From Liolophura sinensis (lineage: Eukaryota > Mollusca > Polyplacophora > Chitonida > Chitonidae): a stretch of 64,000 nt of DNA. Made by a program: the position numbers and the translations under genes. Position 1 is the first letter of the stretch; the number at the start of each line of letters is the position of its first letter. Below, piece after piece: positions 9,301-55,200 of this stretch. The notes beneath the pieces were generated by a model. It did no database searches. It was not told the DNA's origin and was given only the letters and a program-made list of their open reading frames with translations. The stretch covers positions 13,695,608 through 13,759,607 of the forward strand of contig NC_088299.1 of the NCBI RefSeq assembly GCF_032854445.1. The letters run 5' to 3'.

Positions 9301-12300
9301 TAGATGTTAAACTGCCTCCAGGGAACCAGTCCTCAGTAAAAAAACAATCCTTTCTGCCCCACAGGGCCTTGATCGAGGAGTGGCAGACTCAAATCCATCA
9401 CCAACCTGTCAAAGTGTGCTTATTATCTCATCAGGCTACACAGGTATGTATTCCTCCACATACAGTACCCTCTCCAAAATTTATGACACTAGCTAACTGA
9501 GGAATTTTTCAGTATGGACTTTTTTTTGAAAAAATTAAACTATATTTTATCTGACTGTTCTTTTACGCTGTACTGAAGAATATTTCACTTATACGACGGC
9601 GGCCAGCATTAAGGTGAGTGAAAACCGGGCAGAGCCTGGGGGAAGCCCACGACCATCCGCAGGTTGCTGTCAGACCTTCCCACGTACAGCCGGAAAGGAA
9701 GCCAGCATGAGCTGGACTTGAACTCACAGCGACCGCATTGGTAAGAGACTCCTGGGTCATTACGCTGCGCTAGTGCGCTAACCAACTGAGCCATGGAGGC
9801 CCCCTAAACAAGAATAAATTGCTGGGAACACACACATACACACACATTTGTATGTGGAAGGCTTTCACAAACATCTACCCTGTGACAAAATCAGGTTAAC
9901 TCACCTATTAGATCAATGTTTATGTTGTGATGTTTCAAGATCCAATCAAACCACTCTGAGAGAACAGCGTACTCCACGTCTGGCATCTTCCCACTGATGG
10001 GAGGAATGATAAACTTTAATCATCTGACTTGCTCAACATCATACTCAAGAATTTTCACTTATACGATGGCATACTATGGATGGAGGAAACAGGACTGCCC
10101 AAAGAAAACCACCAACATTTGGCAACTTACTCACCAACTTTCCCACTTATGAAGTATGGCTGTACATGCCAAAATCAGAGGTCTTCAATACATCTTAGAT
10201 TGACTGATTGATTTATTGATCATTTTCAAATTAGACTGATGTCAAAAGATATGATGGGAAGGACATTAGACATAATCTGACTGAAGTAGATTGTACTTGT
10301 AATGAAATAGCATGTGTATCGGCAATCTGGGTAGATTTCTTGGCTGCCCTAGAAGTATACATACCATATTTCCTCTACCTTCCCATATATACCCAAGAGC
10401 AATTTTCACTGCGATTTATGCACATTTTTGAGTTGATTTTCGAGACAAGACTACATTGCTCGAATTGGCCAAATTCAGGGCTTCACAAAAAGTATAATTT
10501 TATCAGTCAACACAGCATAATACCTTCAGAATATGCTTGAATAAACACCTTGCAAACATGAAGAAATATTGAAGAATTACAACCAGTCTATAATCAGCCA
10601 ACAGTCAAAGTATATTATCACGATGGCTAAATGAATGTATCAAAAGTATGAATCACTTGACTAGCACAATATTACAAAATATACACTTACCTTTCATGGA
10701 GATTCTCAACAAAGCAGTACTTGGCACTAAGTATTGAGCGTTCCATCAGCTTTACTGGCTTGGTCTAAAATACACGAACAAATGGCAGGACGGAATGGTT
10801 TTCTTTGAGATTTGATTGACAGCATCTTTAGGTAAACATCATGGCAAATTTCAGAAAAATGTCTACCAAGAGTTAAACTGAATTTCTTTACAACTTAAAA
10901 AGGAACTACAGCAAACTTAAAATATTTGTATAAAATTCTGGTCATTTCTAAAAGACAAAAAAAAAAAAAACCTGCCTCTTGAACCCAGATTGCAGGTGTG
11001 GTCCTAATATTCTGTATGTTCTCAGAGATATAAATACCTGTGGTATGATTCGTCGATCATGGTTGGTTGTACATACCTTTGGTGTGCCTCGTCAATTATG
11101 GTTGGCTGTACATACCTGTGGTGTGCCTTGTCAATCACGGTTGAATGTACATACCTGTGGTGTGCCTCGTCAATCATGGTTGGCTGTACATACCTGTGGT
11201 GTGCCTCGTCAATTATGGTTGGCTGTACATACCTGTGGTGTGCCTTGTCAATCACGGTTGAATGTACATACCTGTGGTGTGCCTCGTCAATCATGGTTGG
11301 CTGTACATACCTTTGGTATGCCTCGTCAATCATGGTTGGCTGTGCATACCTGTGGTGTGCCTCTTCGATCATGGTTAGCTGTAAACACCTGTGGTGTGCC
11401 TCGGCAATCATGGTTGGCTGTACATACCTGTGGTGTGCCTCGTCAATCATGGTTAACTGTACATATCTATGGCTTACCTTGTCAATCGTGGTTGGCTGTA
11501 TATACCTGTGGTGTGTCTCGTCAATCATGGTTGGCTGTACATACCTTTGGTGAACCTCATCAGTCATGGTTACCTGAAAAACACCTGTGGTGTGCCTCCT
11601 CAATCATGGTTGGCTGTACATACCTGTGGTGTGCCTCGTCAATCATGGTTGGCTGTACATACCTGTGGTGTGCCTTGTCAATCATGGTTAGTTGTAAATA
11701 CCTATGGTGTGCCTTGTCAATCATGGTTAGCTGTAAATATCTTTAGTGTGCCTCGTCAATCATGGTTAGCTGTAAACACCTGTGATGTTCCTCGTCAATC
11801 ATGGTTAGCTGTAAATACCTTTGGTGTGCCTCGTCAATCATGGTTAGCTGTAAATACCTTTGGTGAGCCTCATCAATCATGGTTAGCTGTAAACACCTAT
11901 GGTGTGGCTCATCAATCATGGTTGGCTGTAAATACCTTTGGTGTGCCTCGTCAATTATGGTTAGCAGTACACACCTGTGGTGCGATATGCCTGTCAATCC
12001 TGGTTAGCTGTACATATCTGAGGTGCAATATGCCTGTCAATCATGGTTAGCTGTACATACCTGTGGTGTGACATGCTTGTTAAGCATGGTTAACTGTACG
12101 TACCTGAGGTGCAACATGCCTGTCCAGCATGCTTAGTTGTACATACTTGAGGTGTGACATGCCTGTCCAACATGCTTAGCTGTCCAAACTTGAGGTGTGA
12201 CATGCCTGTCCAGCATGATTAGCTATACATACCTGAGGTGCGACGTGCCTATCCAACATGGTTAGCTGCACATATGTCTGGAGGGTAAGTGCCCACCGAG

Positions 12301-15300
12301 AGGGATCTTCATACATCAGGCCCTAAAGTAGGTAGAAACAGCAGTGTTAAACATAAAGTCAAATACTGTACAGTGTTTATCGTTTTATAACTCATTTTAC
12401 AGGTAGGTTCACATAACAACTTTATCCTATTAAAAACATTGGTAAACACTTTACCAAAAAATATGTCTGTGGGGCCTTTCAACATGACCCATATTCTCTA
12501 TGTGTGAATTTCTTTAAAATCCACATCTATTTCATTATTCCGACCAAGAAAAATTAATATTCCCCAGCAACTGACCGACCCTATTTTTTCTGAAAGGATC
12601 AGGTTACCCCTTCTTTTAAGCATGACCTTGTAGATGTAAAACTTAATCATGTTAAAAGTGTTCTGCACAGAAAAAAATGTTGCTACCAAATATACTTTTT
12701 TATTTATTTGATTGTGTTGCAACATCATACCCAATACAACTCCCTTCTACAGGCCACCTTCACAAAACTTTTATTTTTCATAGCACCTCTCCTTAACAAC
12801 GTTGATTTATGGCACTATAACCTAAACAACGACTTTTATGAAAAAAGAAAACATAACTTTCAAAGTTTTGTGAAAGTGGCCCCTGGCCATTTCTGTGGGA
12901 GGAGGAAGCTATCAAAACTACAACAAAAGCGTTTACACAAGTAACTTAAAGATACACTGGGGCCTCTCACCCATGTGATTTTTCAGGTATTTGGAAACCA
13001 TGCAGTGCTCTACACAAACAACCACAACTTAATAAATCTAAAGAAATTTTGGTCACAGCCGCCACAGTCCTGGGATCAAGACAAACTGCAGAGAGTTAAC
13101 TCACCAAGGTATTGTGACCACGGACATTTCTCCATTTCTGGACAGGTTCCATATTTATCTGTGCAAACAGAAAACCAAGCCATTTGAGTGGACTGAAAGT
13201 CAAGCAACATGTACATGCACATATGTACTTAACAAGACTGAAAAAGAAAGTGATCAAATACATGTAGAGTACAATATAATATTACTGGTGAAGAATGAAA
13301 GAGAAAGTGAAAGCTAAATGTTAAAAAAAAAATATGAAGTCACTTAAACCAGATTTTACAACAATACATCAAGGTGAAATAAAAACGTTTTCAATTTACA
13401 ACTGAAATAAAACATAGGTAAGCACTTCATGAATTGATGATTGTGACTATTCTATTATTTCATGTAAAAGGTTATATTAAAATCATAGCTTATAAGCATC
13501 CAGAAGAAGCATCCGCACAAGTCTGGACAAGTTTACGGTTCGTTCATAATGGCAGTTCTGGTCTACCTGCCACAAATAAACAAAACAAAAACAAAACTAA
13601 CTGTTGAAAATACTCTACTGTACCTCTGTATCTGTATAGTCTTTAAAATATTCCAGGAATGTTGTCTTTCCACTTGCAATGTTCCCTTCCACGCAAACCT
13701 AATGGAGGATGACACAATTTGTTAACACATCTCCAAAAGAATACACGACATTATTACTGTTAAATTGGTAATAATAACAGCTTCTGGATATGGTTTCTGG
13801 AAGCAGGGATGCTTCCTCACCTTCTACCCACACCCATCCCAGCGCTGTGGCTAAAATGGTCATTTTTTTCCCTAAAACAATGCAGATATCAGCTCATCTA
13901 CATGAAGAGAATGCGTTAATTGTAACAGGTTGACCCAATGATCAACAAGTGTGCAGGATTGATTCCTGCTCTCACCAGGTCAACTGGAGCTTTAAGTCAG
14001 GAAATTTAACTGGCACCCCGGAGAGGGTTCTTTTTCTTTCTGCTATATTGTTCGCTTATATTATAAGATATCAGTGAAAAAATTCTTTGACATGCTGTTG
14101 ACCACCATTCAAATATAGAAAGAAAAAAATTGTAGAAAGAAAAAAAGGTTTCATGTACAGATGAGTGATAACATTATTTGTGTTATATCACTCATTTATT
14201 CAAGGTTGTACATATTTACAGAAAGATGTGTGGCTCACCGTGAATTTTTTCTTTGGCTCCGATGTACAGACATGATTATTATGGGACGACATCCAGGATT
14301 CTGAAAATCACATGAAAATTAATGGTAAGAAACCAAATAATACCAGACATAATGTTATTTTGATTTATTAGATTGCTGTTTTTATGCCATAATGAAGAAT
14401 ATTTCACTTAAAACAATGGCAGCCAGCATTATGGTGGGGAAAATAATGAGCAGAGCCCAAGGTAAAACCATTACAATTCAAGGGCTGCTGCCACATCTTC
14501 ACATTGCATTGGTGAGAGGCTCCTAGGTCATTCTACTGCAAAAGCACACTATTTAACCACCAGGCCAAAGAGCCCCAAAAATTGTTAGATATCTGACACA
14601 TGTGTCTACTTTAGACTGAAAATTACACGTGTATTCTTAGTGCACCACATGTAAATAATAAACAGGTCTAAGTTTATTATATGTCATTTAAGTGTTCCTT
14701 TTTCCGTTTTGAGGGAATTTTTGTTGGGAAACTGGGAAATATATCTTCCTACAAATTTAAGAATAGGCGTAGTAAGAGGTGTCTATGGATACATGTAGTA
14801 TGATAAATGACTTAGCATTTTGCACACAAAAATTTCATTCTAAGAGGCAATAAAGTGACATAAAATATTACACCTCGAGCTGAAAATTAAAAATTTTACT
14901 TATGTTATTATCCTTTTGGTCCAAACAAGCCTCAAACAACTTTCTAAGATAAACAGAACTCTCAGAATAATGCAAAAATGCGCAACACAGTCATGGGGGA
15001 AATTTTAAGTTCTTTACTGTATACAGGCCCAGAAACATACGTTCCAGAAGCTTGGGACAACCAAATTTTGGCATCGGACAACCTAACTTCCTGGTGCACG
15101 CTGTTCGGTCAGGCAACCTAATATTTGTCGTATGAAAACCAAATTATATCTTTGGCAAAGGATTGTTTGGAGTTATTTGCTGGATTAACATCATTTTAGC
15201 AACACGATGGTAAGAATTAATTTATCAGAAAAATCACAGATGGCATTCCACTAATGACTTTGATTTATAAAGTATTAAATGATGTAGTTACATTATGACA

Positions 15301-17528
15301 CAGAGAAAAGTTGGAGGCAACCTCCCCCAGGGCAACCAAAAGAAAATCCACATTTTTCAGGCACTTTTCACGCATGTTTGCCAGGTGTCTCTTTAACCAT
15401 ATTCTGAGGTCATTATTAAGTGCAGATCTGTAGATAAAATTATACTTTTTGTGAATCCCTGAAACTGGCCAATCCAACCCATGTAGTTTTGTCTCCAAAA
15501 TCAAGTTAAAATGTGCATATATTGCACTGGAAGTCGCTCTTTAATACGAGAAAAGGTTGAAGAATTAGGGTATATTTATTAGCTCCTTAGAGACCCATTC
15601 AACAGTTAATAAGGTACAGTCAAGTAAGTGCATGAATTGAATATTCTTACGTTACTGGTCCCCATGGCTTTACTCGACAACACAGACAACAACGACGTAT
15701 AAAAACCCTAAATGACACCATACAGCGTATACATTATTAAATGCTGTATTGATTATTGGATGTTTTTTTTTTTTTAACTTGATCCTTTCTAACACCACTA
15801 TTAAGATTAGGAAAGAAAGCTAGAAGCAAACATGTCCTTAAACGAAGAACACTAAAATTTTCAACTTTTGAAACACTATGAAAGCATGGATTTAGGCCTG
15901 GATAACAAAGATGAAACAAAAAGTACAAAATGACTTCCTAACAGGTAATAAGAGCACGCAATGGTACTGCTTCAAAACACATTAGACCGCACAAACTGCT
16001 GTGCTGACTCTTTGCGAAAACTATTTTAGTGAGGGTGAAATACACTGGGCAGAAGGTACATGTAGGTAGTTTTCATCATGTGAACAGAGTAATGATACCA
16101 TGACTTCGTGTGTAGTCGCAACCATAAAAAAACGAAGTCAACATGTTTAGGACTAGTAGACCTGTAAATCTACCTACATGTAAAAAAAAAATTTTTGATC
16201 TGAAACTGAAAGTTACCTTCATAACTCCATGACTGTGTTACCGTTTAATGTTATTTTGTACGTGTGTGCAATTTGTAGCTTATAGTTGACCAGGAATAAA
16301 CTAAACAATTCTGAACAATGTGTAACTTGCTCAGGACACTACATTAACATGTATATTGTTTTTTATTTGTACTTTGGAATGTTGTGATTAGCTTCAAAGT
16401 GACCCTCGTTCATCTGTGTAATATTCAACGATATACTTCACAAAAACTGTGACCTCTTTTCATCACAAAAAGTGTCACATCTTTTCATCACAAAAACTGG
16501 GAAATATTTTTGCCACAAAAATTGTGAAAAAAACTGGGACAATTTTTTTTTTACTTCACAAAAACTGTGTCTTTTTCAAACATGAATGACAGGGGCCACA
16601 TACCAATGACCACATCGGTCTAAAAACAAAGAGATATTTCAGCGATGGGCATTTTACACACCATGTTACACTGGGTAATTTTTACTAATTATATATATAC
16701 AGTACTTCACAAACTATTCCACAAAGAAGACCTTCTAAAGTCTCACAGCATAATGGGAATCATAAAGTTTAGTGATGTACCAACAGCTAGGCCTGTTGTT
16801 GACAAAGGAAGAAAAAGTTGAAGAAATGAATTAAGATCATCCTGATGTGAAACATTCTTCTCACTGACTCTAAAACTGTGTACAATATTACATGTTACTG
16901 TGTAACAAACATACATTCTCTCTTTATAGTGGACTAATATCATATTTTGGTTTGAATTTTTTTGACTAGAACTAGAACAGCAGATATTGTGAAAAGCTAG
17001 TCTAACAACATGCTGCAGTTCTAGTCAGACCATTTAGAATAACAGGTACCAGTCCATTTAGATGGGTTCATCACTGTATTATGTTAAACTTTTGACATTC
17101 GATCATTGTAACACTAATGTTAAAATAACACACGAGTCCATCTAAATGGACAACTCAGGTCCCACTTACCTGCGATAGTCAACTGTTCTGCTCAAAAGCC
17201 CACTACTCAGGTCCCACTAACCTGTGATAGTCAAAGGTTCTGCTCAAAAGCCCACATGTATCGTAAAGAGCATATAGTGCCTCTTGCACAAGCACAGTCG
17301 TGTTTATTTATAGACGTGCTGCAACATTTTGCATTATCGATGAATTGTTGTTGCTGATCACTTACTGGTTAGATGCGACTTCCACTTCCAAGCTCTTGAG
17401 CCCAGTATGACTCCTCCTGACTGAGAATGTCGGCGCGCCTGGGTCAGACCAGACCGACGTGCTAGTTGTAACCACCCCTTACAGTTCCCCCACAATCGAG
17501 TCTTTACAAATTTATCAAAAGCGAACAT
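6343..17528 (-). CDS. TK2: Thymidine kinase 2, mitochondrial (deoxynucleoside kinase), complete, 10 exons
   Basis: It phosphorylates deoxythymidine and related deoxynucleosides for mitochondrial dNTP supply. Coding exons on minus: 17528-17366, 14300-14239, 13698-13624, 13158-13105, 12322-12233, 10764-10691, 9993-9905, 9232-9153, 8202-8119, 6426-6343. They join in phase to 284 aa (human about 265). The first 54 residues ([15 protein letters not shown] start) are rich in Arg/Lys with almost no acidic residues, like a mitochondrial presequence; this ATG is in frame through exon 1 and fixes the start. The P-loop GNIASGKTT is at residues 80-88, [14 protein letters not shown] at 103-116, the substrate-site block [18 protein letters not shown] at 127-144, the ERS motif at 156-158 and an Arg-rich lid ([10 protein letters not shown]) at 215-224. 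These match dNK/TK2 kinases closely. Start codons of TK2 and DHRS4 are 181 bases apart head to head. Intron 5 holds an array built from exon 5's own tail and donor. Confidence 0.95.
6490..6992. repeat. 27-bp minisatellite in TK2 intron 9
   Basis: About 18 diverged copies of a unit near GAAGTTACGACACTTC plus TACTGACTGTG. It begins some 60 bp from the acceptor of the last TK2 exon. I find no match between the unit and the neighbouring exons. Confidence 0.85.
8283..8400. repeat. Fragment of dispersed repeat R1
   Basis: The block CAAACTTGCATTTTTAAAGG followed by CAAATAAATGTCCC resembles parts of 14820-14960 and 21000-21120. The family is diverged and unclassified, so its boundaries here are approximate. 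Confidence 0.35.
8508..8795 (+). mobile_element. SINE family C, tRNA-like head with internal duplication
   Basis: The head GCCCGGATAGCACAGTTGGT, AGAGCGTCCGCTTTGGGAGC is tRNA-like, with a predicted anticodon stem CCGC/GCGG around loop TTTGGGA (Pro-type TGG). A block containing CTTTAAAAGAGGAAGTTGTA and CTTCCTCGCTTGGC occurs twice in tandem. The related sequence at 55935-56105 on minus shares the head and the GGCTCGGGCGGGGC segment. The distal part lacks tRNA pairing, so this is a SINE, not a tRNA gene. Confidence 0.65.
8800..8976 (-). mobile_element. SINE family A, head-truncated
   Basis: It starts with TTATTTATTTATTCATTTAC and GATTGGTGTTTTACGCTGTA, then continues to GAGCTGGACTTGAAATCACC. The tRNA-like head is missing. 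It lies in TK2 intron 8. Confidence 0.8.
9545..9806 (-). mobile_element. SINE family A, full length with tRNA-like head
   Basis: The copy runs from CTGTTCTTTTACGCTGTACT to the complete head complement, CTAACCAACTGAGCCATGGA followed by GGCCCCC. The head shows the A-box and B-box (GAGTTCAAGTCC on minus). It lies in TK2 intron 7. Confidence 0.85.
10026..10215 (-). mobile_element. Diverged SINE (family B type)
   Basis: It shares ATACTCAAGAATTTTCACTT, ATACGATGGC and the AACATTTGGCAACTTACT block with the other B-type copies at 29.0, 44.2, 45.7 and 54.2 kb. Those copies share the family A tail block but have a different body with TTTGGCAA-ATT-AC motifs. Confidence 0.55.
10400..10570. repeat. Dispersed repeat R2 copy
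   Basis: The block with AAAAAGTATAATTTTATC and the CACCTTGCAAACATG stretch also occurs, in either orientation, at about 15260-15540, 32640-32830 and 40665-41105. It carries neither obvious TIRs nor tRNA-like boxes; it is an unclassified interspersed repeat. Confidence 0.5.
11040..12232 (-). repeat. 39/43-bp array made of TK2 exon 5 tail plus splice donor
   Basis: The array abuts the exon 5 donor. About six proximal units (roughly 11990-12232) are 43 bp and about 24 distal units are 39 bp. Read on minus, each distal unit encodes [13 protein letters not shown], plainly related to exon 5's [14 protein letters not shown], followed by a donor-like CACAG|GTATGT. The exonic part and the first bases of the intron were therefore amplified together. 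Because 39 is divisible by 3, long open frames cross the array on both strands (193 codons minus, 255 plus); these are by-products. Confidence 0.93.
13494..14238. other. TK2 introns 2 and 3 material, no further exon
   Basis: Apart from exon 3 at 13624-13698 I see no feature. The region 13920-14020 contains a GTTGACCCAATGATCAACAA stretch of tRNA-like flavour that I cannot classify. A 76-bp open block ending at 13569 is discussed under rejected items. Confidence 0.35.
14360..14577 (-). mobile_element. SINE family A, diverged
   Basis: It shows TTTATTAGATTGCTGTTTTT, AATGAAGAATATTTCACTTA and the head complement CCACCAGGCCAAAGAGCCCC. Divergence is high, implying an old copy. It lies in TK2 intron 1. 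Confidence 0.75.
14820..15545. repeat. Dispersed repeats R1/R2, long diverged copy
   Basis: The left part resembles 8283-8400 and 21000-21120. The right part (15260-15540) resembles the R2 copies, with AAATTATACTTTTTGTGAAT and TGCATATATTGCACTGGAAG. The remainder of TK2 intron 1 up to 17365 holds short degenerate TCACAAAAACTGTGA-type repeats near 16435-16590 and otherwise nothing I recognise. Confidence 0.45.
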
Positions 17529-17709
17529 TTCACCCTACAACTGAACAGAGCGCTTTGTTTCGATATTCTCCGCAATTCGGGAATTTTCGGGTCGATATTC
17601 AATGTTTGGGAGTAGACGAATGTAGATCGCAATGTGGAGAGTCCTATCTGTTTAGCTTCCGGTTGTCACCGCGTGGACTTTGATCGTTGTGAAGGATCAA
17701 CAGTCCAAG
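17529..17709. promoter_or_regulatory. Bidirectional promoter between TK2 and DHRS4
   Basis: Only 181 bases separate the two divergent start codons, so both core promoters and 5' leaders must lie here or overlap the coding exons. CTTCCGG at 17656-17662 matches the ETS/GABP consensus. No TATA box is apparent. ETS-family sites are a known feature of bidirectional promoters in vertebrates; use here is inference. Confidence 0.7.
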
Positions 17710-25334
<7,625 letters not shown>

Positions 25335-27865: not shown

Positions 27866-28085
27866 CAAACGTGTGTTGAAGAGGTTTTTGATTACACATT
27901 TGTTGTATAATATTGTTAGTTAGAAGAGGTTTTTGATTACACATTTGTAGTATAATATTGTTACTTAAGAGGTTTTTGATTACACATTTGTAGTATAATA
28001 TTGTTAGTTAGAAGAGGTTTTTGATTACACATTTGTAGTATAATACTGTTACTTACACACATTTATAGTATAATGTTTTTAGTTA
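27866..28085. repeat. About 45-bp tandem repeat
   Basis: Four to five copies of AAGAGGTTTTTGATTACACA followed by TTTGTAGTATAATATTGTTA. Intergenic. Confidence 0.9.
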
Positions 28086-30597: not shown

Positions 30598-33500
30598 TCA
30601 GTTCACCTTGATGACATGGAATGTTTTTCCAGCAAGAACATACAGCCTGTCATTTGTTGCATGTACGCCCAAGATGTCCTTGGTGGTCTCCAATGCCACC
30701 AGCTGTTGCTTAGCAACAGCTTTGACCTGCTGTCCAGTTTTCCTGTTTCTAATTGGTGAAGATATTGCCTCTGGCTGCCTGTAAATGTACACATGTCGGA
30801 CACAGTCAAGGATTGCTGCGTATGAGGCATTAGGCGGTGCTGTACAGAACCGTTTCTGCTGCTTGGACGCCTGCACATAACCGAAGGCGTTGAAGGTGGC
30901 TTGATGCTTGACAATGTTTCCAGAGTTGCCTCCCTTGGAGAGAGGTTGCCAGAGAATCCCATCCACATCATGTCGTAGACAGAATGCTGGGAGCATGTCA
31001 GTCTGGAGCTGGGCTGTGAATAACCACTGATGACTGCTGATATTTGCCTGACAACAAACACACATTATATATTATTACACCTCACAGATGGATTCTATGT
31101 ATTCACTGGTCAAAACAGTGTCACATGATATTCGACAAAACATGAAGTACAATGCTAACGCACGCTAGCAAAGTAACGCCAAACTCACAAAGTAATATCT
31201 CACTTTCATGAGGTGAGTGGGTATGGTCTTCCGTCTGCTTGTTTGTAAAGTAAACAACAGAAATGAATGAATGAATGCTTGGGGTATTGCGTTGTACTTA
31301 AACAATTTTTCAGCCATGTGACAAGGGGTCATCATTAGATGTGTGTACATACACTGTCTTCTTGTAGCAGAGCAAATCCATGTTGGCAAAGTGCTGACGT
31401 CACTGAAGTATCATACTGAAGACACCAGACATGACACCCCACCAAGCCACACCGGGCCAACCAGTCCTGTTTACTTGCTCTAACCTCTCAGTGTTACGCT
31501 CCAAGCGACTCAGCAGCAAGTAGAATTCTTAAAGTCTTTGGTATGATCCAATCCTGGGTGTGATCCTGAGTCTCCCAAGTTCGAGATGGACGCACTAACC
31601 ATTAGTCCAGTTAAACAACCGGACGATGGCTAGTTCCAATGTCTATGTATAAATTCAGCAGGTTAAGTACCAACTGAGCAATGAAATATTTGGTGCATGT
31701 CATGGGATAGGATATCAGGAATTGTAAGCACCAGAGAAGTGATGTTCAACTCGCCCCGCACTGGTTTACGGGTTTAACACTGCTATAGTGGTGTGTATTG
31801 TGTAACCCAATACCGCTGAACCTTGGTTCGTACCAGTCCTGAGAATGCGCAGCATTCAAGGGATTTGAGGAGGTATTGAAACAAGCTTCAGTGGTATCGG
31901 GTTACACCACAAACACAAAGATGAAGTTATTAAAGTCTATTCTACCCCAAAACATGAAGAAAATGTGGCAAAAACTGCATATTTCATGCTGCCATTCTGT
32001 TTTACTCCCTCCACAGAGGTCATGCATTTTAAATCAATCAACAGCAAGCTTGGGAAAAGGAGCTGACCTATACATGTCAAAGCTACGTATATATGGCATT
32101 GTGTCTTATTGTTGCGTGATGTAGAAAGTTTACTGTATATGCGTTATGACATCATACCACTGAGCTCAGACTGGAACGTCTTGAAACAAATGTTTCCTTT
32201 TTAATGTCATGGTGTAAAACATAAAAAATGTAAAAACAATAGCGATGTCGATAAATTGTGTGAAATAACACTTTTATCACTGAAGGAAATTCCGACAGTT
32301 TACAAAGCACGAAGTAAATTAACAAGTAAACAAACTCAAATTCTTTTATTTGTAGACATAAACAGCACGAAATGATATTACTCGGGGAGGTAAACGTATT
32401 GGCCAGTGTGCTGTGTGACAGACTCGATGTTGTTCGAAAGGTATTTAATATGTATGTTTGCACACGGCCTGCAACTAACAGCTGGGTAGAATAAATATCA
32501 CATCTCTCAAGTCAACAACTGGTGACATCCCACAACATACGCTATCTGTATGGTGTATTTGCTCTAACAAAAATTTAGTTAGAAACGAATTTTCAGAAAT
32601 AAAAGGTCAACAGAACTCCCACAATCAGTTAAACTGAGGTACTGTAATTCTGCAGCCTTTGCACATGTTTGCAAGGTGTTCATTCAAACATGTTTTGAAG
32701 GCATTATTCTGTGTAGGCCTATAAAATTATACTTTTTATGAAGTCCTGAACTCAGCCAATCCAACCAATGAAGTCTCCAAAATCAAATCAAAAATGTGCA
32801 CACAATGCACTGAAAGTTGCTCTTTCATGTTCAAATAGGTTGATGAATTAGATTACCTAGTCATGGACCAAATTTTAGGTAACACACACAGTGATCTACC
32901 CAGGAGACTATGGAGTAATAATGGACAGCAACTACGAGTGGTTCTAATCCCGATGGAAAATTGTGGGAATAATGCACATTGTGTTTGCACTGGAAATGAC
33001 AATGTGTCTGCAGCCATTTCAAAGAGATTATACGCCTGAGCTTACTGCTTGTATAAATTAAACTTTTACTCAGGCAACCTGCTGTGTGACGGTGTGCGGG
33101 TCTCCCACCTACCTGATGAGTGATAGGGTGTACGTCTGCTACCTACTTGATGTGTGATGGTGTGTGTGTCTCCCACCTACCTGATGTGTGATGGTGTGTG
33201 TGAGTCTCCCACCTACCTTAAGTGTGACGGTGTGTGTGTCTCTCACCTACCTGATGTGTGACGGTGTGCGGGTCTCCCACCTAACTGCTGTGTGACAGTG
33301 TGTATGTCTCCCACCTACCTGATGTGTGATGGTGTGCATGTCTTTCACCTACCTGATGTGTGACGGTGTGTGTGTCTCCCACCTACCTGATGTGTGACGG
33401 TGTGTGTGTCTCCCACCTACCTTATGTGTGACAGTGTGTATGTCTCCCACCTACCTGATGTGTGATGGTGTGCATGTTTCTCACCTACCTGATGTGTGAT

Positions 33501-36500
33501 GGTGTGCGTGTCTCCCACCTACCTGATGGGTGATGGTGTGCGTGTCTCCCACCTACCTGATATGTGATGGTGTGTGTGTCTCTCACCTACCTGATGTGTG
33601 ATGGTGTGCGGGTCTCCCACCTACCTGCTGTGTGACGGTGTGTATGTCTCCCACCTACCTGATGTGTGATGGTGTGCGTGTCTCTCACCTACCTGATGGG
33701 TGATGGTGTGTGTGTCTCCCACCTACCTGATGTGTGATGGTGTGTGTGTGTGTGTCTCCCACCTACCTTATGTGTGACGGTGTGTGTGTCTCCCGCCTAC
33801 CTGATGTGTGATGGTGTGTGTCTCCCACCTACCTTATGTGTGACAGTGTGTATGTCTCCCACCTACCTGATGTGTGATGGTGTGCGTGTCTCTCACCTAC
33901 CTGATGTGTGACGGTGTGCGGGTCTCCCACCTACCTGATGTGTGACGGTGTGCGAGTCTCCCACCTACCTGATGTGTGATGGTGTGTGTGTCTCCCACCT
34001 ACCTGATGTGTGATGGTGTGTGTGTCTCCTACCTACCTAATGTGTGACGGTGTGCGTGTCTCCCACCTACCTGATGTGTGACGGTGTGCGTGTCTCCCAC
34101 CTACCTGATGTGTGACGGTGTGCGTGTCTCCCACCTACCTGATGGGTGATGGTGTGCGTGTCTCCCACCTACCTGATGTGTGATGGTGTGTGTGTCTCCT
34201 ACCTACCTGATGTGTGACGGTGTGCGTGTCTCCCACCTACCTAATGTGTGATGGTGTGTCTCTCCTACCTACCTGATGTGTGATGGTGTGTGTGTCTCCC
34301 ACCTACCTGATGTGTGATGGTGTGCGTGTCTCCCACTTACCTAATGTGTGATGGTGTGTGTCTCTCCTACCTACCTGATGTGTGATGGTGTGTGTGTGTC
34401 TCCCACCTACCTGATGTGTGATGGTGTGCGTGTCTCCCACCTACCTGATGTGTGATGGTGTGCACGTCTCCCACCTACCTGATGTGTGATGGTGTGCGTG
34501 TCTCCCACCTACCTGATGTGTGATGGTGTGCGTGTCTCCCACCTACCTGATGTGTGATGGTGTGCACGTCTCCCACCTACCTGATGTGTGACGGTGTGTG
34601 TGTCTCCCACCTACCTGATGTGTGATGGTGTGCGTGTCTCCCACAGACCTGATGTGTGATGGTGTGCACGTCTCCCACCTACCTGATGTGTGATGGTGTG
34701 TGTGTCTCCCACCTACCTGATGTGTGATGGTGTGTGTGTCTCCCACCTACCTGATGTGTGATGGTGTGTGTGTCTCCCACCTACCTGATGTGTGACGGTG
34801 TGTGTGTCTCCCACCTACCTGATGTGTGACGGTGTGCGAGTCTCCCACCTACCTGATGTGTGACGGTGTGTGTGTCTCCCACCTACCTGATGTGTGATGG
34901 TGTGCGTGTCTCCCACCTACTTGATGTGTGATGGTGTGCGTGTCTCCCATAGACCTGATGTGTGATGGTGTGTGTGTCTCCCACCTACCTGATGTGTGAT
35001 GGTGTGCACGTCTCCCACCTATCTGATGTGTGACGGTGTGTGTGTCTCCCACCAACCTGATGTGTGATGGTGTGTGAGTCTCCCACCTACCTGATGTGTG
35101 ATGGTGTGTGTGTCTCCCACCTACCTGATGTGTGACGGTGTGCGTATCTCCCACCTACCTGATGTGTGATGGTGTGTGTGTCTCCCACCTACCTGATGTG
35201 TGATGGTGTGCGTGTCTCCCACCTACTTGATGTGTGATGGTGTGCGTGTCTCCCATAGACCTGATGTGTGATGGTGTGTGTGTCTCCCACCTACCTGATG
35301 TGTGATGGTGTGCACGTCTCCCACCTATCTGATGTGTGACGGTGTGTGTGTCTCCCACCTACCTGATGTGTGACGGTGTGTGTGTCTCCCACCTACCTGA
35401 TGTGTGATGGTGTGCACGTCTCCCACCTACCTGATGTGTGACGGCGTGTGTGTCTCCCACCTACCTGATGTGTGATGGTGTGTGTGTCTCCCACCTACCT
35501 GATGTGTGACGGTGTGTGTGTCTCCCACCTACCTGATGTGTGACGGTGTGTGTGTCTCCCACAGACCTGATGTGTGACGGTGTGTGTGTCTCCCACCAAC
35601 CTGATGTGTGATGGTGTGTGAGTCTCCCACCTACCTGATGTGTGATGGTGTGTGTGTCTCCCACCTACCTGATGTGTGATGGTGTGTGTGTCTCCCACCT
35701 ACCTGATGTGTGACGGTGTGTGTGTCTCCCACCTACCTGATGTGTGACGGTGTGTGTGTCTCCCACCTACCTGATGTGTGATGGTGTGTGTGTCTCCTAC
35801 CTACCTAATGTGTGACGGTGTGCGTGTCTCCCACCTACCTGATGTGTGACGGTGTGTGTGTCTCCCACCTACCTGATGTGTGACGGTGTGCGTGTCTCCC
35901 ACCTACCTGATGGGTGATGGTGTGCGTGTCTCCCACCTACCTGATGTGTGATGGTGTGTGTGTCTCCCACCTACCTGATGTGTGACGGTGTGCGTGTCTC
36001 CCACCTACCTAATGAGTGATGGTGTGTGTCTCTCCTACCTACCTGATGTGTGATGGTGTGTGTGTGTCTCCCACCTACCTGATGTGTGACGGTGTGTGTG
36101 TCTCCCACCTACCTGATGTGTGATGGTGTGTGTGTGTCTCCCACCTACCTGATGTGTGATGGTGTGTGTGTCTCCCACCTACCTGATGTGTGATGGTGTG
36201 CACGTCTCCCACCTACCTGATGTGTGATGGTGTGTGTGTGTCTCCCACCTACCTGATGTGTGATGGTGTGTGTGTCTCTCACCTACCTGATGTGTGACGG
36301 TGTGTGTGTCTCCCACCTACTTGATGTGTGATGGTGTGCGTGTCTCCCACTTACCTAATGTGTGATGGTGTGTGTGTCTCCCACCTACCTGATATGTGAC
36401 GGTGTGCGTGTCTCCCACCTACCTGATGTGTGACGGTGTGCGTATCTCCCACCTACCTGATGTGTGATGGTGTGTGTGTCTCCCACCTACCTGATGTGTG

Positions 36501-39500
36501 ATGGTGTGCACGTCTCCCACCTACCTGATGTGTGACGGTGCGCGTATCTCCCACCTACCTGATGTGTGACGGTGTGCGTGTCTCCATCTATCCGCTGTAG
36601 TATGGCTGTGTCATCTGTGTACTGATCACACTCCTCTAGCTCCTGACTGTTGTACGGCCTGTTCTCCCTCAGGCTCGGGTCTGGGTTCTGAAACATGAAA
36701 CGCTCATGGCATGATTTTTTTGTTTAGTCAATTGATTGGTATTTCAGTCAAAAAGAATTGTTCTTTTTTGCAATTTATTTTTCCAAAACTTATAATATGC
36801 AATGGAAAAAAGATTTCTTTCTGAGACCTTTCAAGTTGAATTCTCATTGTTAAATCATCATATTTTTGTTAAATTTACTTATTACATGTAGTTTTAATAC
36901 AACTTGATTAGTTTGGGAGCCAAAATGTTTTCTGAAACTGAATTAGATCCAGACATGGTCCTGGTACAGTAAATGTCCAAGTGTTAGGGGAGGTAAGTCA
37001 TACCCATTCCTCAGATGTGAGATGAGCCAGCTGGCTGTGGATGGCCTCGACCTGCTCTGGACTGACCACCATCTCCCCGTGCGAGTCACCGAGTACAACC
37101 ACCTGCCATGTCTTTTCCTCTGCCTTACTGAGGCTCAGTGTTATTCTGAAAAGAAACAATAAATGTACATGAGGCATGTAACTGCTTTGATCAGCACAGG
37201 TGCCTGTCTGACTATTTGATTTCCCTTCTTTACCCTAAGATTGCAATCAAATTAAACTCTTAAAGATATACATTAAATCGATAAAGTTTTGACTGCTTAT
37301 TCTATTTAGTGGTAGTACAATTTCAGCCTAGTGCAATTTATTTTGTTTATTTGATTGGTGTTTCATGTCATACTCAAGTTTGAGCATCCAACTTCAAATA
37401 TTTTGTTTTGATAAGAGGAGAAAGGTTTTGAACTTCAGCCCAAAATCACCTAATGAAACAGGTCCCTGTAGCCTGTACCTCCAATGGCAATGACATGCTC
37501 CTAATGTTAAAATGGCTTCACCATCATGCTGGCCACCGTCGTATGAGTGAAATATTCTTGAGTATGGCATAAAACATCAATCAAATAAATAAATAAACTA
37601 AAATTTAAGGAGGTTTGCAGTACTCCATGGAGAGCCATCCAAGTCTACTGGCCATGTCAGGGAGAATAACAACAGAAGAAGTACCTCAATACAAACCCTA
37701 ACTGCTCAAAAAGGATGGACTCATCAGCAGTTCTCCAAGACAAGGCATTATCTACGGCTCTCTGTGATAGTTTTTACAGCCTCTCCCTAACTCACCGGCC
37801 ATTGTCTATTGTCCAGGTGGAGCTGTCTAGGTCCACACACTCCTGAAGGGCTCCCTGTAACAACACCCGAGTATTCTTCACCCCAAACTCTATCTGCTGA
37901 GGGTGTAGTGACAGGTATATGTCAGCCTTGGACACCTCAATGGGGACTGTGAACAGCACTGTGACTTCATCATCTGTCTGACTCCAGGTGTATTGTGGGC
38001 TGGAGTCTTACAAACAAACAGAAACATTTTTACATCATCATTAACAAACATAACATTTTTACATCATCATTAACAAACATAGCGTTTTTCCATCATCATT
38101 AACAAACATAACATTTTTCCATCATCATTAACAAACAACATTTTTCCATCATCATTAACAAACATAACATTTTTACATCATCATTAACAAACATAGCGTT
38201 TTTCCATCATCATTAACAAACATAACATTTTTCCATCATCATTAACAAACAACATTTTTTCATCATCATTAACAAACATAACATTTTTACATCATCATTA
38301 ACAAACATAACATTTTTCCATAATCATTAACAAACATAACATTCGTGATTATAAAGTGTACGGATATTTGACAACAATATCTGATTTAAATACACTTTAA
38401 TTTTTTGACCCTAATGACCTCTTTAATGACTGTAAATGTGGACTCCAACAAAATGATGAAATATCAGATTTGATGGCGAAAGAATAAGACACCCATTTTT
38501 AAGACATACGACCATCTGAGGTGTATGATTATCCGTCACCTCTGCAGAAATGTTATTTGGCATGGGTATTAATGAAGGAAAAACTATTTTCTGTTTTTGA
38601 CAGCTGCTGAAAAATTCTGATTTCAAAGTGTGTGTTCGATGGGTTTATGCTTCCAGTATCATCAGAAAAGTACCACCATATTTCAATAATTCTTTCATTT
38701 TACTTGCATTTTATTCGTACCGTTGCTGTACGACAGAGTGTCTGATGGATCAGCCATTGCTGGCTCAGATTCTGACCTTAATTCTGTTTTTGGCCATTAC
38801 TGAGGTATATCTAGGCTTCTGTTGTTGACCATTACTGATGTATCTCTAGGCTTCTGTTTATGGCCATTACTGACGTCTCTCTAGGCTTCTGTTTTTGGTC
38901 ATTACTCAGGTATCTCTAGGCTTCTGTTTTTGGTCATTACTCAGGTATCTCTAGGCTTCTGTTTTTGGTCATTACTCAGGTATCTCTAGGCTTCTGTTTT
39001 TGGTCATTACTCAGGTATCTCTAGGCTTCTGTTTTTGGTCATTACTCAGGTATCTATAGGCTTCTGTTTTTGGCCATTACTGACGTCTCTCTAGGCTTCT
39101 GTTTTTGGTCATTACTCAGGTATCTCTAGGCTTCTGTTTTTGGTCATTACTCAGGTATCTCTAGGCTTCTGTTTTTGGTCATTACTCAGGTATCTCTAGG
39201 CTTCTGTTTTTGGTCATTACTCAGGTATCTCTAGGCTTCTGTTTTTGGTCATTACTCAGGTATCTCTAGGCTTCTGTTTTTGGCCATTACTGAGATATCT
39301 ATAGGCTTCTGTTTTTGGTCATTACTCAGGTATCTCTAGGCTTCTGTTTTTGGTCATTACTCAGGTATCTCTAGGCTTCTGTTTTTGGTCATTACTCAGG
39401 TATCTATAGGCTTCTGTTTTTGGCCATTACTGAGATATCTATAGGCTTCTGTTTTTGGTCATTACTCAGGTATCTATAGGCTTCTGTTTTTGGCCATTAC

Positions 39501-48565: not shown

Positions 48566-48830
48566 GTTTTCAAGAGTGATATACTTTTTATTGGCCTGCC
48601 ACCAATGATTATCAGCCGGCTAAAGCCATCTGTGCCCCAAGGGTAGGTCCTGCACACACACACTGGTTAAGGTCATCGTCATCTGATACCACGGCACAAT
48701 CCTAAGATAGACACCTGCAATATATTCCACCTGTTCCATGACAAGCACGACCCAGAGTCACAAATGTCTTGTGTCTCTCCAAACTGAAATGTCACCAAGC
48801 TACCCTGCGACTGACAATGTTTTCCTTCAA

Positions 48831-48836
48831 TTTATT
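48831..48836 (-). terminator. Candidate polyadenylation signal of OTUD6B
   Basis: AATAAA on minus about 413 bases beyond the stop codon. Other AATAAA-like sites occur further down, so the true end is uncertain. Confidence 0.3.
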
Positions 48837-49009
48837 ACACAGATATAGGATACATAAGATACATGTACATGAGCATACATCTATCTCATCTTCTTCATCA
48901 GATAAACTCATCTTCTTCAGCAACAGACTTTTAATTTCATTCATCAGCTTTCAGGCCTCGTCATTGCAGCCGACAATGCCCTGTGCTTCACCTGCCCTCA
49001 TCTTGTATT

Positions 49010-49262
49010 TCAGCAGACCTCAACCTGTTTGTCAGCTGAGATTCTGTTTTTCACCTAAATCTGTTTCTGTTTTTCAGTTGATATTCTCCTGTTTTCAGCT
49101 GACCTCGCCCTGTTTTATCAGCTGACCTCATCCTATTTTTCAGCTGACCTCATCCTGTTTTTCAGTTGATCTCATTCTCTTTTTTAGCAGATCACATTCT
49201 GTTTTCAGCTGGCCTCATCCTGTATTTCAGCTGATCTCTTTCTATTTTTCAGCTGACCTCCT
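49010..49262 (-). repeat. 22-bp array overlapping the OTUD6B stop codon
   Basis: About eleven diverged copies of GAGGTCAGCTGAAAAACAGG-AT on minus. The first copy is the end of the OTUD6B reading frame (GAG GTC AGC TGA), so each unit carries a version of the last codons and the stop. The array fills the start of the 3' UTR. Confidence 0.8.
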
Positions 49263-52200
49263 CTTCTTCGTCTTCAGGTTGTCTTGGGCGAACTGAGTTG
49301 TAATGCTCACCCAAACCAAATGCATGACGATAATATCTGAGGATGAAACAAAAGAAGAGGTGTCCTCATCAGCCGGGGTTCTGCTCGATGTTACAAATGC
49401 AGTCTGAAGAAAGGGCAAGACTATTTGAGCAAGAAGATTCAGTACATAACATGCTCAAATAGAGCTTTAAAGGAAACAAAACATAAAAATGATACAAATA
49501 TCAAATGAAAAAGTGTGAGAAGTTATTTGTAAATGTGGTTTTTAAAATATTTTTGTATGGTGGGTATTTGGGATCACCTCTTGATATTTATCATCTTTGC
49601 AACATAATGTTCTAAGAAAGGATGTGATGTATGTCTAATAAATTCATTTAAATGTAAATTTGTTGTTTATATCTAAACACTTGCATTTGATCGAAACTAT
49701 GATAATATTTTTCAACATATTAGAAAACAAAATTCTAGCACAAATATATTTATTAAACATGCTTTACATCTTACTTTAGAACATTATTATACCAAGAAAT
49801 GATCCCAAATACCCACCATACAAAAAATATTTTCATATGGCTTTCTCTCATCAACAGAAAATTCGAAAAAAAAACATAGGAAACAATACTGACAACCAAT
49901 TATTCGCACTCTTTCATCTGAACTTTATGTATTTTTTCATATTTTCTCCACTTTCAAGACAGAGGTACAAGAATTTTTTTTGTTCACAGAATGAGATGAC
50001 ACAGCCGTCGTTGCCTATCACTTGAAAGGAAATCTCAATATGACAGATAAGACAGTCTCAAGGAAGACATCCAAGGGAAGTAACTCACAGTAAAACAAGT
50101 GGTTCTGTTTTGTGCTGCTCGCCTAGTATCAGGTCTGGACCCGTCGCCTGCAGGACCTTTATTGGTACCCTCAGGACATCCGACAACGCCCGCAACTACA
50201 ACAACAACGAAATGGCATCATGTTATGTTAATCATTGTATGTGACCGAACAAGTAAAAAATCAGTCTGTCAAGGATTAGATCCCTATTCTCAAAGCATTT
50301 ATTAAAAAATGTAAGGTTATTAGTTGACCTTTAATTACATTTAAGCCTGATAAAATTTATCACGGTCAAAACAATACAACATCTGGTGGGATGGAAAAAT
50401 AGGTTCTTGATGGTTTTTTTTGGCAAAACTGCATAGTTATGCTCGGAGAACTCCGGTTTCTTCCACCCATAAACCTGACTGCCATCATATAAGTGAAAAT
50501 GATACCATGTAGTTCTGACTACACTGTTCACAACATGCCAAGTAATAGTAACTTTGATCCACTGACCTCCAGTTGACCTCCCCATGCTGATGTGGTTGCA
50601 ACATTTTTACAATATTCATCAAATTCATCTGAAAATAAAAAAATTAAAACTCATAAATATTGTTCTTTTGTTATGGCATGGCTTTATGTAGTTGTTAATA
50701 ATTTGGTATCTAATTTAAAATAAAAGACAACAAAAAATATAATCTTTGTTACTTCGGAAGCGGGGTGGGGACAGACCAAAACGGCCATTTTGATACAATG
50801 TGCTTGGTAACTCTATAAATCAACTTTTAATCTGGAATTCTTGCCATATGATCTCACATGACTCTTATCTCATACTCACATGGCAAAACGGCAAAACATT
50901 GTCCATGTGACGTCAGTAAAAACGTGCAATCTCAGGTTACTGAAATAACACGCACCTGTAAGGCTACAAGTTATAAGATGTCGGTGCTTCCATTTACTTA
51001 CTTTCATAATTGCGATATCTTGGTTATACTTGGTTATCAAAAAAAAAAAAAAAGAAGGTATTCTTTTTAAACTTAATGTAGGATCCTTGATGCGTATATA
51101 CATTTGGTCTGGGTTTATCTTTTCTTGTAAGTAATCATTAGAATGGGTCTTCCTGAACTCAGTAACTTACCTGTTGTAAAAATATCCCCTGTATCCTCAT
51201 TAAACAGGAAAAGGAAGTAATCATCAGGGTGGGTCTTCATGAACTCAGTAACTTACCTGTTGTAAACATGTCCCCTGTATCCTCATTAAACATGAAAAGG
51301 AAGTAATCATCAGACTGGGTCTTCCTGAACTCAGTAACTTACCTGTTGTAAAAAATATCCCCTGTGTTCTCATTGGACACGAAAGGTATGTAATCATCAG
51401 GCTAGGTTTCACAAACTCAGTAACTTACCTGTTGTAAACATGTTCCCTGTATTCTCATTAGACAGGAAAGGTTAGTAATCATCAGACTGGGTCTTCATGA
51501 ACTCAGTAACTTACCTGTTGTAAGCATATCCCCTGTGTTCTCATTAGACAGGAAAGGTTAGTAATCATCAGGGTGGGTCTTCATGAACTCAGTAACTTAC
51601 CTGTTGTCAAAAATATCCCCTGTGTTCTCATTGGACAGGAAAGGTATGTAATCATCAGGCTGGGTTTCACGAACTCAGTAACTTACCTGTTGTAAACATG
51701 TTCCCTGTGTTCTCATTAGACAGGAAAGGTTAGTAATCATCAGACTGGGTCTTCATGAACTCAGTAACTTACCTGTTGTAAAAAATATCCCCTGTGTTCT
51801 CATTGGACAGAAAAGGCATGTAATCATCAGACTGGGTCTTCATGAACTCAGTAACTTACCTGTTGTAAACATATCCGCTGTGTTCTCATTAGACAGAAAA
51901 GGTTAGTAATCATCAAGGTGGGTCTTCATGAACTTAGTAACTTACCTGTTGTAAACATATCCCCTGTGTTCTCATTAGACAGGAAAGGTTAGTAATCATC
52001 ACAGTGGGTCTTCATGAACTCAGTAACTTTCCTGCTGTAAACATATCCGCTGTGTTCTCATTAGACAGAAAAGGTTAGTAATCATCAGGATGGGTCTTCA
52101 TGAACTCAGTAACTTACCTGTTGTAAAAATATCCGCTGTGTTCTCATTAGACAGGAAATTTTAGTAATCACCAAGGTGAGTCTTCATGAACTCAGTAACT

Positions 52201-55200
52201 TACCTGTTATAAACATATCCCCTGTGTTCTCATTAGACAGAAAAGGTTAGTAATCATCAGGGTGCGTCTGCATGAACTCAGTAACTTACCTGTTATAAAC
52301 ATATCCCCTGTGTTCTCATTAGACAGAGTTTAGTAATCGTCTGACTGGGTCTTCATGAACTCAGTAACTTACCTGTTGTAAACATGTCCGCTGTGTTTTC
52401 ATTAGACAGGAAAGGTTAGTAATCATCAGGGTGGGTCTTCATGAACTCAGTAACTTACCTGTTATAAACATATCCGCTGTGTTCTCATTAGACAGAAAAG
52501 GTTAGTAATCATCAGGGTGGGTCTTCACGAACTCAGTAACTTACCTGTTATAAACATATCCGCTGTGTTCTCATTAGACAGAAAAGGTTAGTAATCATCA
52601 GGGTGGGTCTTCATGAACTCAGTAACTTACCTGTTATAAACATATCCGCTGTGTTCTCATTAGACAGAAAAGGTTAGTAATCATCAGGGTGGGTCTTCAC
52701 GAACTCAGTAACTTACCTGTTATAAACATATCCGCTGTGTTCTCATTAGACAGGAAAGGTTAGTAATCATCAGACTGGGTCTTCATGAACTCAGTAACTT
52801 ACCTGTTGTAAACATGTCCCCTGTGTTCTCATTAGACAGGAAAGGTTAGTAATCATTAGGGTGGGTCTTCCTGAACTCAGTAACTTACCTGTTGTAAACA
52901 TGTCCCCTGTGTTCTCATTAGACAGAAAAGGTTAGTAATCATCAGGGTGGGTCTTCATGAACTCAGTAACTTACGTGTTGTAAATATATCCGCTGTGTTC
53001 TCATTGGACAGAAAAGGTTAGTAATCATCAGACTGGGTCTTCATGAACTCAGTAACTTACCTGATGTAAACATGTCCCCTGTGTTCTCATTAGACAGGAA
53101 AGGTAAGTAATCATCAGGGTGAGTCTTCATGTATTCAGCAGTTTTCTGTCTCAAACTTGCATTATCCTCCTGAAACAAATTCACAGGTTCTATCACAAAG
53201 CTGATGTTACATCTAAACTTTAATAGTTTTCAGCAAAATCTCTGATCATAATTTAGCAAATTTAGTCAGATTTGTACAGTAGTTTTGATAAAACATGAAG
53301 ATCATACCTGAATTCCTCTTAACTCCAATTGATGACCCAAGGCATTGTATAAACTGAAAGCAAAGAAAATCATGCACATCCCTGAGTTTATTATTTACTT
53401 ATTTGATTGGTGTTTTACCCTGTACTCAAGAATATTTCACTTATAGGATGGTGGCCAGCATTATGGTGGAATGAAACCGGGGGGAAACCCACATCCATCC
53501 GCAGATTGCTGGCGGACCTTTCAACTTACCATCCCTGAGTTGCTATACACACAAAATATGTTTTCAATTTAAGGATAGCATCTACTTTCCCATACTTCAT
53601 GCTGTTAGGGAAGATTTCACGAAAAGTAGCATAGGCTTCTTAAAAACAATCGAAAGACTTTGTGTCCAAAGTTATCCATGCTCAGCGTTAATTTAGAGAA
53701 GTGCTGTAGTTGCAGTATTAAAGACTAAGGCTCTTCAAGAATGTGGCTAATTATTATGATGTTAGGTTGGTATAAAGAGAAAAGATGACTAACCAGTTTC
53801 CATCTGAGTGAATCTGAAAGAAAGAAAATAAAACAGAATACAGTTTAATAATCACTGACAATATGAATTAAATTAGACAAATCTTACCTACTGAGGATGA
53901 CTCATCTTCCTCAAGCACACAATACAAGATAGTCACCTAAAATACCATGCTCTCTATGACAGTAGGGTCAATTAGTACCATAGGATGGTTTACCTGATGT
54001 GCAGCTAATCCAAGGGCAGATAACTTCTGTTTGAGAGCCTGTGCCTCAAGATGTCTGTCTCCCTGTAGATTTATCACTTCCTGTTCACGGATTCTCTCTT
54101 CTCTGTTCCTGTCCTTCTCAGCCCTCTTTTCCTAAAGAAGAAATATCATCCAGACATGCTGTCAGCAATAAAAACAGTTATAAGAAAAAGTACATTCGAT
54201 TTTTTTGACATATGTGACATTACACTTCAAGATGATTTATTCATTTATTTGATTATTGTTTAAAGCCGTACTCAAGAACTTTTCACTCAATATACAATAG
54301 TGGTCAGTTGACCCGGTTTTTAGAATTCTAGTTGACTGGGGTAAACCGTCAACCTTTGGCAAGTTACTAGCAAGTTACATACATTCTGATGTACATGTCA
54401 TATTGGTAGAAGACAAGAGGTCTTCAATAAGCAGTTAGCCTGCTGAGTGAGCAGGCATTAGGCTTAATGTGGTTCTGTCCACAGATGGACAATATTTTAG
54501 AGCTGTTTTAGACTCACACTTTACTTATTATTCATTTGTCTAGCTGGTGTTTACTCATAGCTACATTTCAATGATATCTGTAGCCGCTAAGTATACAGAT
54601 CTATGGATTCGTTGTTCTCTTAGCCAGTTACCTGACTATGCATACTAAAGTTTATTAGTCAAGGGAACGAGAGATCAAGCCATAAATCAGGTGCCTGATA
54701 TGATTGAAAATGCCCTTTTGGAGAAAGCGGTAAGACCCACACTGTCAATGTTATATAATATGAGACCATTTAAAACCTTCTCATCTCATTTAATGTAACC
54801 TTAGCCCAATATCTTTTTTTTTTTTCTTCATATTTGTATATTTACATAACAATGATGAAATGCATCACATTCTCCACAGGTGTGTTTTCAATAATGTCAG
54901 GTACCTGCTTTCTGGCTTGGGATATGTAAGTTCCTGTGATCAGTAAAACATGGTGGACACAGGAAGATGATGACAAACAGACTTACTCTTCTCTTCTTAG
55001 CCTTGCTGGTTTTTTTAGGAATAGGTTCTGCAGGATTTTCTTCACCTGTGACATCTTCAGTCCCTGTCTGTAGAGATTGTAGCTGGTCTGCTACCCCTGA
55101 GACGCCATCCTGCAAGCAAATTTTACCTTAACTCAAAACACATAATCTGCAACAACATGCATGTGTTAATCTGATATACCAATACTGTAAGCCTTGTAAA

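Follow-up and report, generated by a model that had tools for sequence, protein, structure and literature searches.

How does the boundary between an exon and its intron become the unit of a long tandem repeat, and how is such a repeat tolerated by the gene? These questions are raised by 64,000 nt of the Liolophura sinensis genome (NC_088299.1, forward strand, 13,695,608 to 13,759,607; this whole stretch is referred to as the window, and all coordinates are window positions). Three genes resembling TK2, NUDCD1 and OTUD6B each carry an array that starts in one coding exon and repeats the tail of this exon together with the first bases of the following intron. A first-pass annotation had claimed that three unrelated genes bear arrays of their own exon tail plus 5' splice site, and this was borne out by Tandem Repeats Finder (TRF), gene models and junction alignment. 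The arrays are, beyond doubt, copies of their own exon-intron junction, and they probably represent boundary-spanning minisatellites of the kind named "mirages", founded by chance duplications across a donor and tolerated because splicing takes the first donor and treats all that follows as intron.

Anatomy of the three junction arrays

TRF returned 38 rows in the window, from which 20 arrays were obtained after overlaps were merged and periods below 10 were dropped. Three of these 20 arrays start within a coding exon and then cross the donor of that exon (TRF scores 1345, 5516 and 3002), and all three genes lie on the minus strand. For the gene models, exons were read directly from the DNA, with splice dinucleotides and frames as a check; the joined exons of all five modelled genes form open frames. 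Copies were counted after every array had been aligned, with wrap-around, to the genuine junction of its exon, which is included in the totals of 31 (TK2), 103 (NUDCD1) and 24 (OTUD6B) copies.

The TK2/dNK-like gene (9 coding exons, minus strand; Pfam dNK, E 1.4e-59) is affected at coding exon 4 (12233..12322), which has an open frame, AG/GT flanks and the donor CAG|GTATGT at 12233. It had been called exon 5, a number that fits only if a putative 5'-untranslated exon is counted. The array (11034..12275, minus strand) is composed of about 34 nt of exon tail and about 9 nt of intron head, with AG|GT present in 26 copies; the unit measures 43 bp in the six exon-proximal intron copies and mostly 39 bp further out. 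In the NUDCD1-like gene (9 exons, minus strand), exon 8 (36559..36687, ending in LQRIDGDTHTVTHQ) has the donor CAG|GTAGGT at 36559 and lies outside the part matched by the Pfam CS domain. Its array (33077..36585, minus strand) has a 34-bp unit of 25 nt of exon tail and 9 nt of intron head, and AG|GT is found in 96 copies. The OTUD6B-like gene (10 exons, minus strand; Pfam OTU, E 1.5e-31) is affected at exon 7 (53061..53169, EDNASLRQKTAEYMKTHPDDYLPFLSNENTGDMFTS), with the donor CAG|GTAAGT at 53061. Here, the array (51130..53138, minus strand) has an 86-bp unit of 70 nt of exon tail and 16 nt of intron head, and AG|GT is present in 21 copies, the total including a partial last copy. The unit sizes proposed previously were about right as a set, but had been assigned to the wrong genes. 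The three units are unrelated, each deriving from its own junction, in agreement with the earlier statement that they do not form one repeat family.

When each junction was aligned to its intron and compared with dinucleotide shuffles, the similarity was far beyond chance, with z = 17.9 (TK2), 13.9 (NUDCD1) and 29.3 (OTUD6B). Over the three arrays AG|GT is intact in 143 of 158 copies, the three genuine donors counted. Using a matrix built from the window's own 33 donors, a score at or above the tenth percentile of genuine donors was obtained for 24 of 27 (TK2), 96 of 101 (NUDCD1) and 22 of 22 (OTUD6B) scorable non-genuine copies. The earlier claim of over 100 extra donors holds for donor-like sites, as 140 non-genuine copies with AG|GT (25+95+20) can be read from the DNA. 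The copies closest to the exon have lost AG|GT in TK2 (copies 1 and 2) and OTUD6B (copy 1), whereas it is retained in NUDCD1. If the frame is continued past the genuine donor, a stop is reached after 54 (TK2), 69 (NUDCD1) and 17 nt (OTUD6B). The array-bearing exons are 90-129 nt long and their introns 1.5-5.5 kb, and the gene models call for just one intron across each junction array.

The direction of copying was read from the encoded proteins. The tail of TK2-like exon 4 aligns with the solved deoxynucleoside kinase 1j90, which we take to be a fly protein, and OTUD6B-like exon 7 aligns with the solved OTU domain-containing protein 2, presumably from yeast. Since both tails have solved homologues to which they align, the copying in these two genes went from the exon to the array and not the reverse. 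The name NUDCD1 is an assumed one. More generally, the names TK2, NUDCD1 and OTUD6B were adopted from the first-pass annotation, while DHRS4 and RABGGTA, used below, are names that we presume to fit; the support tested for these consists of the Pfam domains and, for TK2 and OTUD6B, the structure alignments.

Identity of the non-genuine copies to the genuine unit ranges from 0.65 to 0.86 in TK2, from 0.79 to 1.00 in NUDCD1 and from 0.85 to 0.95 in OTUD6B, where the partial last copy reaches 0.63. In TK2 the exon-proximal copies 1-6 are closest to the exon (0.77-0.86, compared with 0.65-0.74 beyond; gaps counted as differences). In OTUD6B, 17 of 23 non-genuine copies read TAC TAA where the exon has TAC TTA, which is a stop in the exon frame. 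Identity between OTUD6B copies is 0.92 for adjacent ones and declines with separation, to 0.87 at a distance of 20 copies, as predicted by local turnover.

Placement of the arrays and the other junctions of the window

The 20 arrays were placed at random in the window and donor-crossing arrays were counted. Over 3000 rounds the mean was 0.81, with P = 0.047 for three or more; joint rotation of the 20 arrays gave P = 0.020. When the 14 genic arrays were placed within gene spans, omitting the six arrays outside coding spans, the mean was 1.00 and P was 0.068, while a donor-over-acceptor excess of at least three had P 0.023. A duplication at 17153-17255, described below, entered these tests as an array, but not as a donor-crossing one. 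All of these P values are weakened by the window having been selected for this very feature, so that the enrichment of arrays at donors within this one window is suggestive only. Arrays also lie nearer to splice sites than random ones, with a median distance of 123 compared with 488 nt in the whole window (P 0.004) and of 78 compared with 286 nt within genes (P 0.040). The numbers of arrays at most 30 nt away from a splice site (6 of 20, 2.73 expected, P 0.051; genic, 6 of 14, 3.12 expected, P 0.070) are not significant. The first-pass annotation had proposed one mechanism acting repeatedly at exon-intron boundaries. For this the placement tests are suggestive at most (P 0.020-0.068, depending on the null), and three of 33 donors against none of 33 acceptors are too few to establish a preference for donors.

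Donors and acceptors were compared in two scans. In the first one, 33 donors and 33 acceptors were aligned with the neighbouring intron over a length of up to 4000 nt. The three array donors alone were far above shuffles, none of the 33 acceptors had strong copies, and the acceptor of DHRS4-like exon 7 was weakly above shuffles (30, compared with a largest value of 24 in 60). The second scan covered 31 donors and 31 acceptors with 1500 nt searched, two introns below 220 nt being left out. The three array donors (z 29.3, 17.9 and 13.9) were followed by RABGGTA donor 1 (9.5), NUDCD1 acceptor 6 (8.8), DHRS4 acceptor 7 (4.6) and TK2 acceptor 6 (4.2, its score equalling the best of 100 shuffles). 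The signal at RABGGTA comes from an array at 62170-62381, 13 nt past the donor, which is not a boundary copy: with the array left out P was 0.46, and of 56 further segments of this intron, 6 matched the junction equally well. Likewise, the NUDCD1 array at 38013-38343, 7 nt from the acceptor, gave its z of 8.8 without exon sequence, and P was 0.72 once the array was left out.

At DHRS4-like exon 7 (24657..24791, plus strand), a diverged duplicate of the acceptor was found at 23950..24041 on the same strand. It comprises the intron tail, TTTTCAG| and some 42 nt of exon sequence, including an exact match of 15 nt. Against dinucleotide shuffles it reached z 4.6 (score 54, largest 45 in 100), and for its array-free part none of 2000 mononucleotide shuffles attained the score of 44 (largest 41), in a region picked post hoc. 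The duplicate adjoins and slightly enters an array at 24020-24543 (34- and 42-bp units). This array was ruled out as a copy of the exon head (P 0.82), and only the flanking duplicate is exon-derived. Acceptors are thus probably not exempt from boundary duplication, in line with the amphioxus globins, for which the accessible text describes both boundaries as affected.

A candidate fourth donor case was found at 17153..17255 on the minus strand, where a 52-bp unit occurs twice, with CAG|GTTAGT at 17222 and CAG|GTAAGT at 17170. Among the 247 minus-strand GT sites in 14310-17699, position 17170 scored best and 17222 third best. The start ATG of the TK2-like gene can lie in exon 14239-14300, which has an acceptor, and an upstream untranslated exon would therefore be expected. 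The duplication likely marks a possible 5'-untranslated TK2-like exon that would have been copied with its splice site, in the divergent promoter region of the TK2-like and DHRS4-like genes.

The two genes on the plus strand are the DHRS4-like gene (8 exons; Pfam short-chain dehydrogenase) and a RABGGTA-like gene, of which the window holds the start (2 exons, the end of the second being unplaced); this fragment scores 24.7 bits, under the Pfam cut-off of 29.5 bits. Another intron of the DHRS4-like gene holds, at 21671-22579 on the sense strand, a 22-bp array of 41.5 copies (TRF) with the form TTCCTCTGCAG|ACCTTCAGCTG, a string of acceptor-like pyrimidine-AG motifs that ends 96 nt before the real acceptor. 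A further 22-bp array (48980-49260) overlaps the OTUD6B-like coding sequence in its final 12 nt, the stop among them, and continues downstream. An array of 35 bp and 41.5 copies lies mid intron at 38782-40232 and shows CAG|GTATCT when read antisense to the NUDCD1-like gene. An interspersed repeat is present at 4795-4834, 9578-9617, 53430-53469 and 56182-56221, its copies sharing a 40-nt core with 2-3 mismatches; its exact pattern had no match in scans of genome-contig and viral-contig collections. Literature scans for the letters of a repeat element of the window likewise gave no hit, and the interspersed repeats may be of a molluscan type. For tRNA genes, one Rfam match and, at a different place, one ARAGORN match were obtained.

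Probable birth and tolerance of the arrays

If the arrays are mirages, each would have been founded by a short tandem duplication that started in the last 25-70 nt of the exon and ended 9-16 nt into the intron, and replication slippage or unequal exchange may then have multiplied it. The spliceosome would use the first donor, all later copies would leave as intron, and the copies would have no function. Such a duplication leaves the first junction as it was, so that the reading frame is kept provided that splicing takes place there; with later copies spliced out as intron, the array is free to grow on the intron side. Because later donors lie behind the stops met on read-through, their use would truncate the protein, and the first donor would be needed in most transcripts. 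Furthermore, none of the unit lengths (34, 86 and 43 bp) is divisible by three, and a purely exonic duplication would thus break the frame; the donor was therefore probably part of the unit from the outset. Exon definition would favour the first donor, given the short exons and long introns.

Several observations sit uneasily with this explanation. In classic competition experiments with equal donors, the donor nearer to the acceptor was often preferred, and use of the first donor is for this reason not self-evident. Local turnover is not reflected in all arrays: identity is nearly flat with separation in NUDCD1 (0.916, falling to 0.903 at 80 copies), and the TK2 copies have no clear trend. 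Three long donor-crossing arrays in 64 kb are not comfortably expected from chance duplication (P 0.02-0.07), and these three make up 6760 of the 11079 bases of the 14 genic arrays. Finally, the array donors are rather strong, with ranks 1, 6 and 10 among 33 (P 0.015 by exact permutation, noticed post hoc).

The last point would be explained if a strong 5' splice site itself started tandem duplications, through U1 pairing, pausing or an R-loop, and breakage with repair. Among the 33 donors, CAG|GTRNGT is matched by the three array donors only, the best of the 247 sites around the candidate untranslated exon belongs to a two-copy duplication, and arrays as a whole lie close to splice sites. The motif was chosen post hoc, however, and it could itself stem from exchange between array and junction, by which a donor may have been kept or made strong. 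The placement P values are modest and the counts within 30 nt fall short of significance, the large 35-bp array at 38782-40232 and others are found at no junction, and an acceptor has been duplicated as well. We regard such a donor-directed birth as unlikely. Somewhat more doubtful is the broader proposal that strong donors (CAG|GTRNGT) are fragile or slip-prone here, in which case donor strength would predict where minisatellites arise, and many more genes beyond the window would bear series of their own donors. Two routes by which the sequence might favour slippage were set aside. As DNA hairpins, segments taken from the three junction arrays and from three further arrays did not fold better than shuffles (z 0.22 to 1.48), and with single strands free of unusual folding, hairpin-driven slippage was rejected; this also argues against a donor-directed process. 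A homeology seed, in which a donor-like stretch of the exon one unit upstream mispairs with the donor, was inconsistent over 31 exons (2 were too short) and was dropped. TK2 matched at 11 of 13 nt at -42 (P 0.03), NUDCD1 weakly at -32 (P 0.20) and OTUD6B best elsewhere, at -105 (P 0.30), while the top score was obtained for NUDCD1 exon 4, an exon without an array.

It is quite improbable that the copies were selected as decoy or reserve donors regulating splicing or intron removal. The high proportion of copies with AG|GT would fit such a role, as would the lack of AG|GT in the exon-nearest copies of TK2 and OTUD6B, although not of NUDCD1. In OTUD6B, a shared variant is seen in none of the 16 columns of the intron head and in 20 of the 70 exon columns (Fisher P 0.018), but shared variants are not fewer in the donor part of TK2 (P 0.15) or of NUDCD1 (P 0.44), where the head is more variable, and Fisher tests on copies of common ancestry overstate the difference. 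Among all windows of the unit, conservation of the donor window is unremarkable (rank 16 of 43 in TK2, 11 of 34 in NUDCD1 and 11 of 86 in OTUD6B), and the later donors run into stops. Since the arrays disagree, reading selection from donor conservation among copies was rejected; of the three arrays, only that of OTUD6B, with its near-invariant intron head, gives perhaps a hint that the donors of the copies are under selection. An assembly artefact, with repeats collapsed or over-expanded by the assembler, is very improbable. Long repeats such as these are difficult for assemblers, and the draft amphioxus genome had one mirage misassembled, according to the available text of PMC3087553. Against this, the copies diverge from the genuine unit, the period shifts along the TK2 array, and re-sequencing of amphioxus PGBD5 favoured real repeats, as far as PMC3902484 could be consulted. 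Coincidence, i.e. three ordinary intron minisatellites merely touching exons, is scarcely credible. The window does hold 20 arrays of period at least 10 in 64 kb, others end 7, 13 and 25 nt from splice sites, and those at 7 and 13 nt show no junction copying. However, each unit of the three junction arrays includes the donor and 25-70 nt of coding exon, and for these arrays coincidence is refuted by the z values of 13.9-29.3.

Mirages and related systems

The first-pass annotation knew of no named class for arrays of this kind. Such a class exists, as minisatellites spanning exon-intron boundaries, both 5' and 3', have been named "mirages" in amphioxus, according to the sections available of PMC3087553 and PMC3902484. 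The genes concerned are Adh3 and the globins BflGb6 and BflGb9 in the former, to which PGBD5 is added in the latter, where TnC is also cited; for globin and Adh3, the accessible part of PMC3087553 suggests intact mRNA despite the mirages. The arrays described here share with mirages the minisatellite-like repetition, a unit that spans the boundary and includes exon sequence, and many copies with splice signals. They differ in reaching up to 103 copies and 3.5 kb, compared with haplotypes of 6 and 3 units in the excerpts on BflGb6, and in affecting three genes within 42 kb, while the published mirages found in the literature, as far as its text was available, are all cephalochordate.

Other known systems are less similar. 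A human minisatellite with multiple splice donors, known by the title of a 1995 paper as cited in PMC2572611, likewise offers many donors. By that title, it concerns a single gene and donors in the transcript, whereas the donors here are putative ones read from DNA. In potato RdRp, the available portion of PMC4974935 describes how an intron was gained when a tandem duplication across a boundary of intron and exon supplied the splice signals. There, a comparable duplication produced a new intron, while many copies lie here inside what reads as one intron. Ordinary intronic minisatellites such as that at 38782-40232 are similar in size range and copy divergence; for this array no junction copy was found, and the adjoining donor and acceptor were unremarkable in both junction scans. 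A search of openly licensed papers with a few wordings found no boundary-spanning repeats outside cephalochordates and human, and no match was obtained in the openly licensed literature for a mollusc minisatellite at an intron splice donor. The accessible text on a clam globin (PMC4732748) and on an earthworm metallothionein with minisatellites in its introns (PMC12783039) describes no boundary-spanning repeat.

Compared with the mirages in the published excerpts, what seems new is the size (103 copies, 3.5 kb), the density (three genes in 42 kb) and a possible link to strong donors. If such arrays are common, each affected gene would be a natural experiment in which dozens of near-identical donors are offered and one is obligatory, and the choice of donor, by exon definition or by use of the nearest donor, could be tested in vivo. 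Two further questions would then become testable: whether introns are gained from duplications at boundaries, and whether minisatellites are seeded by transcription or by the binding of U1.

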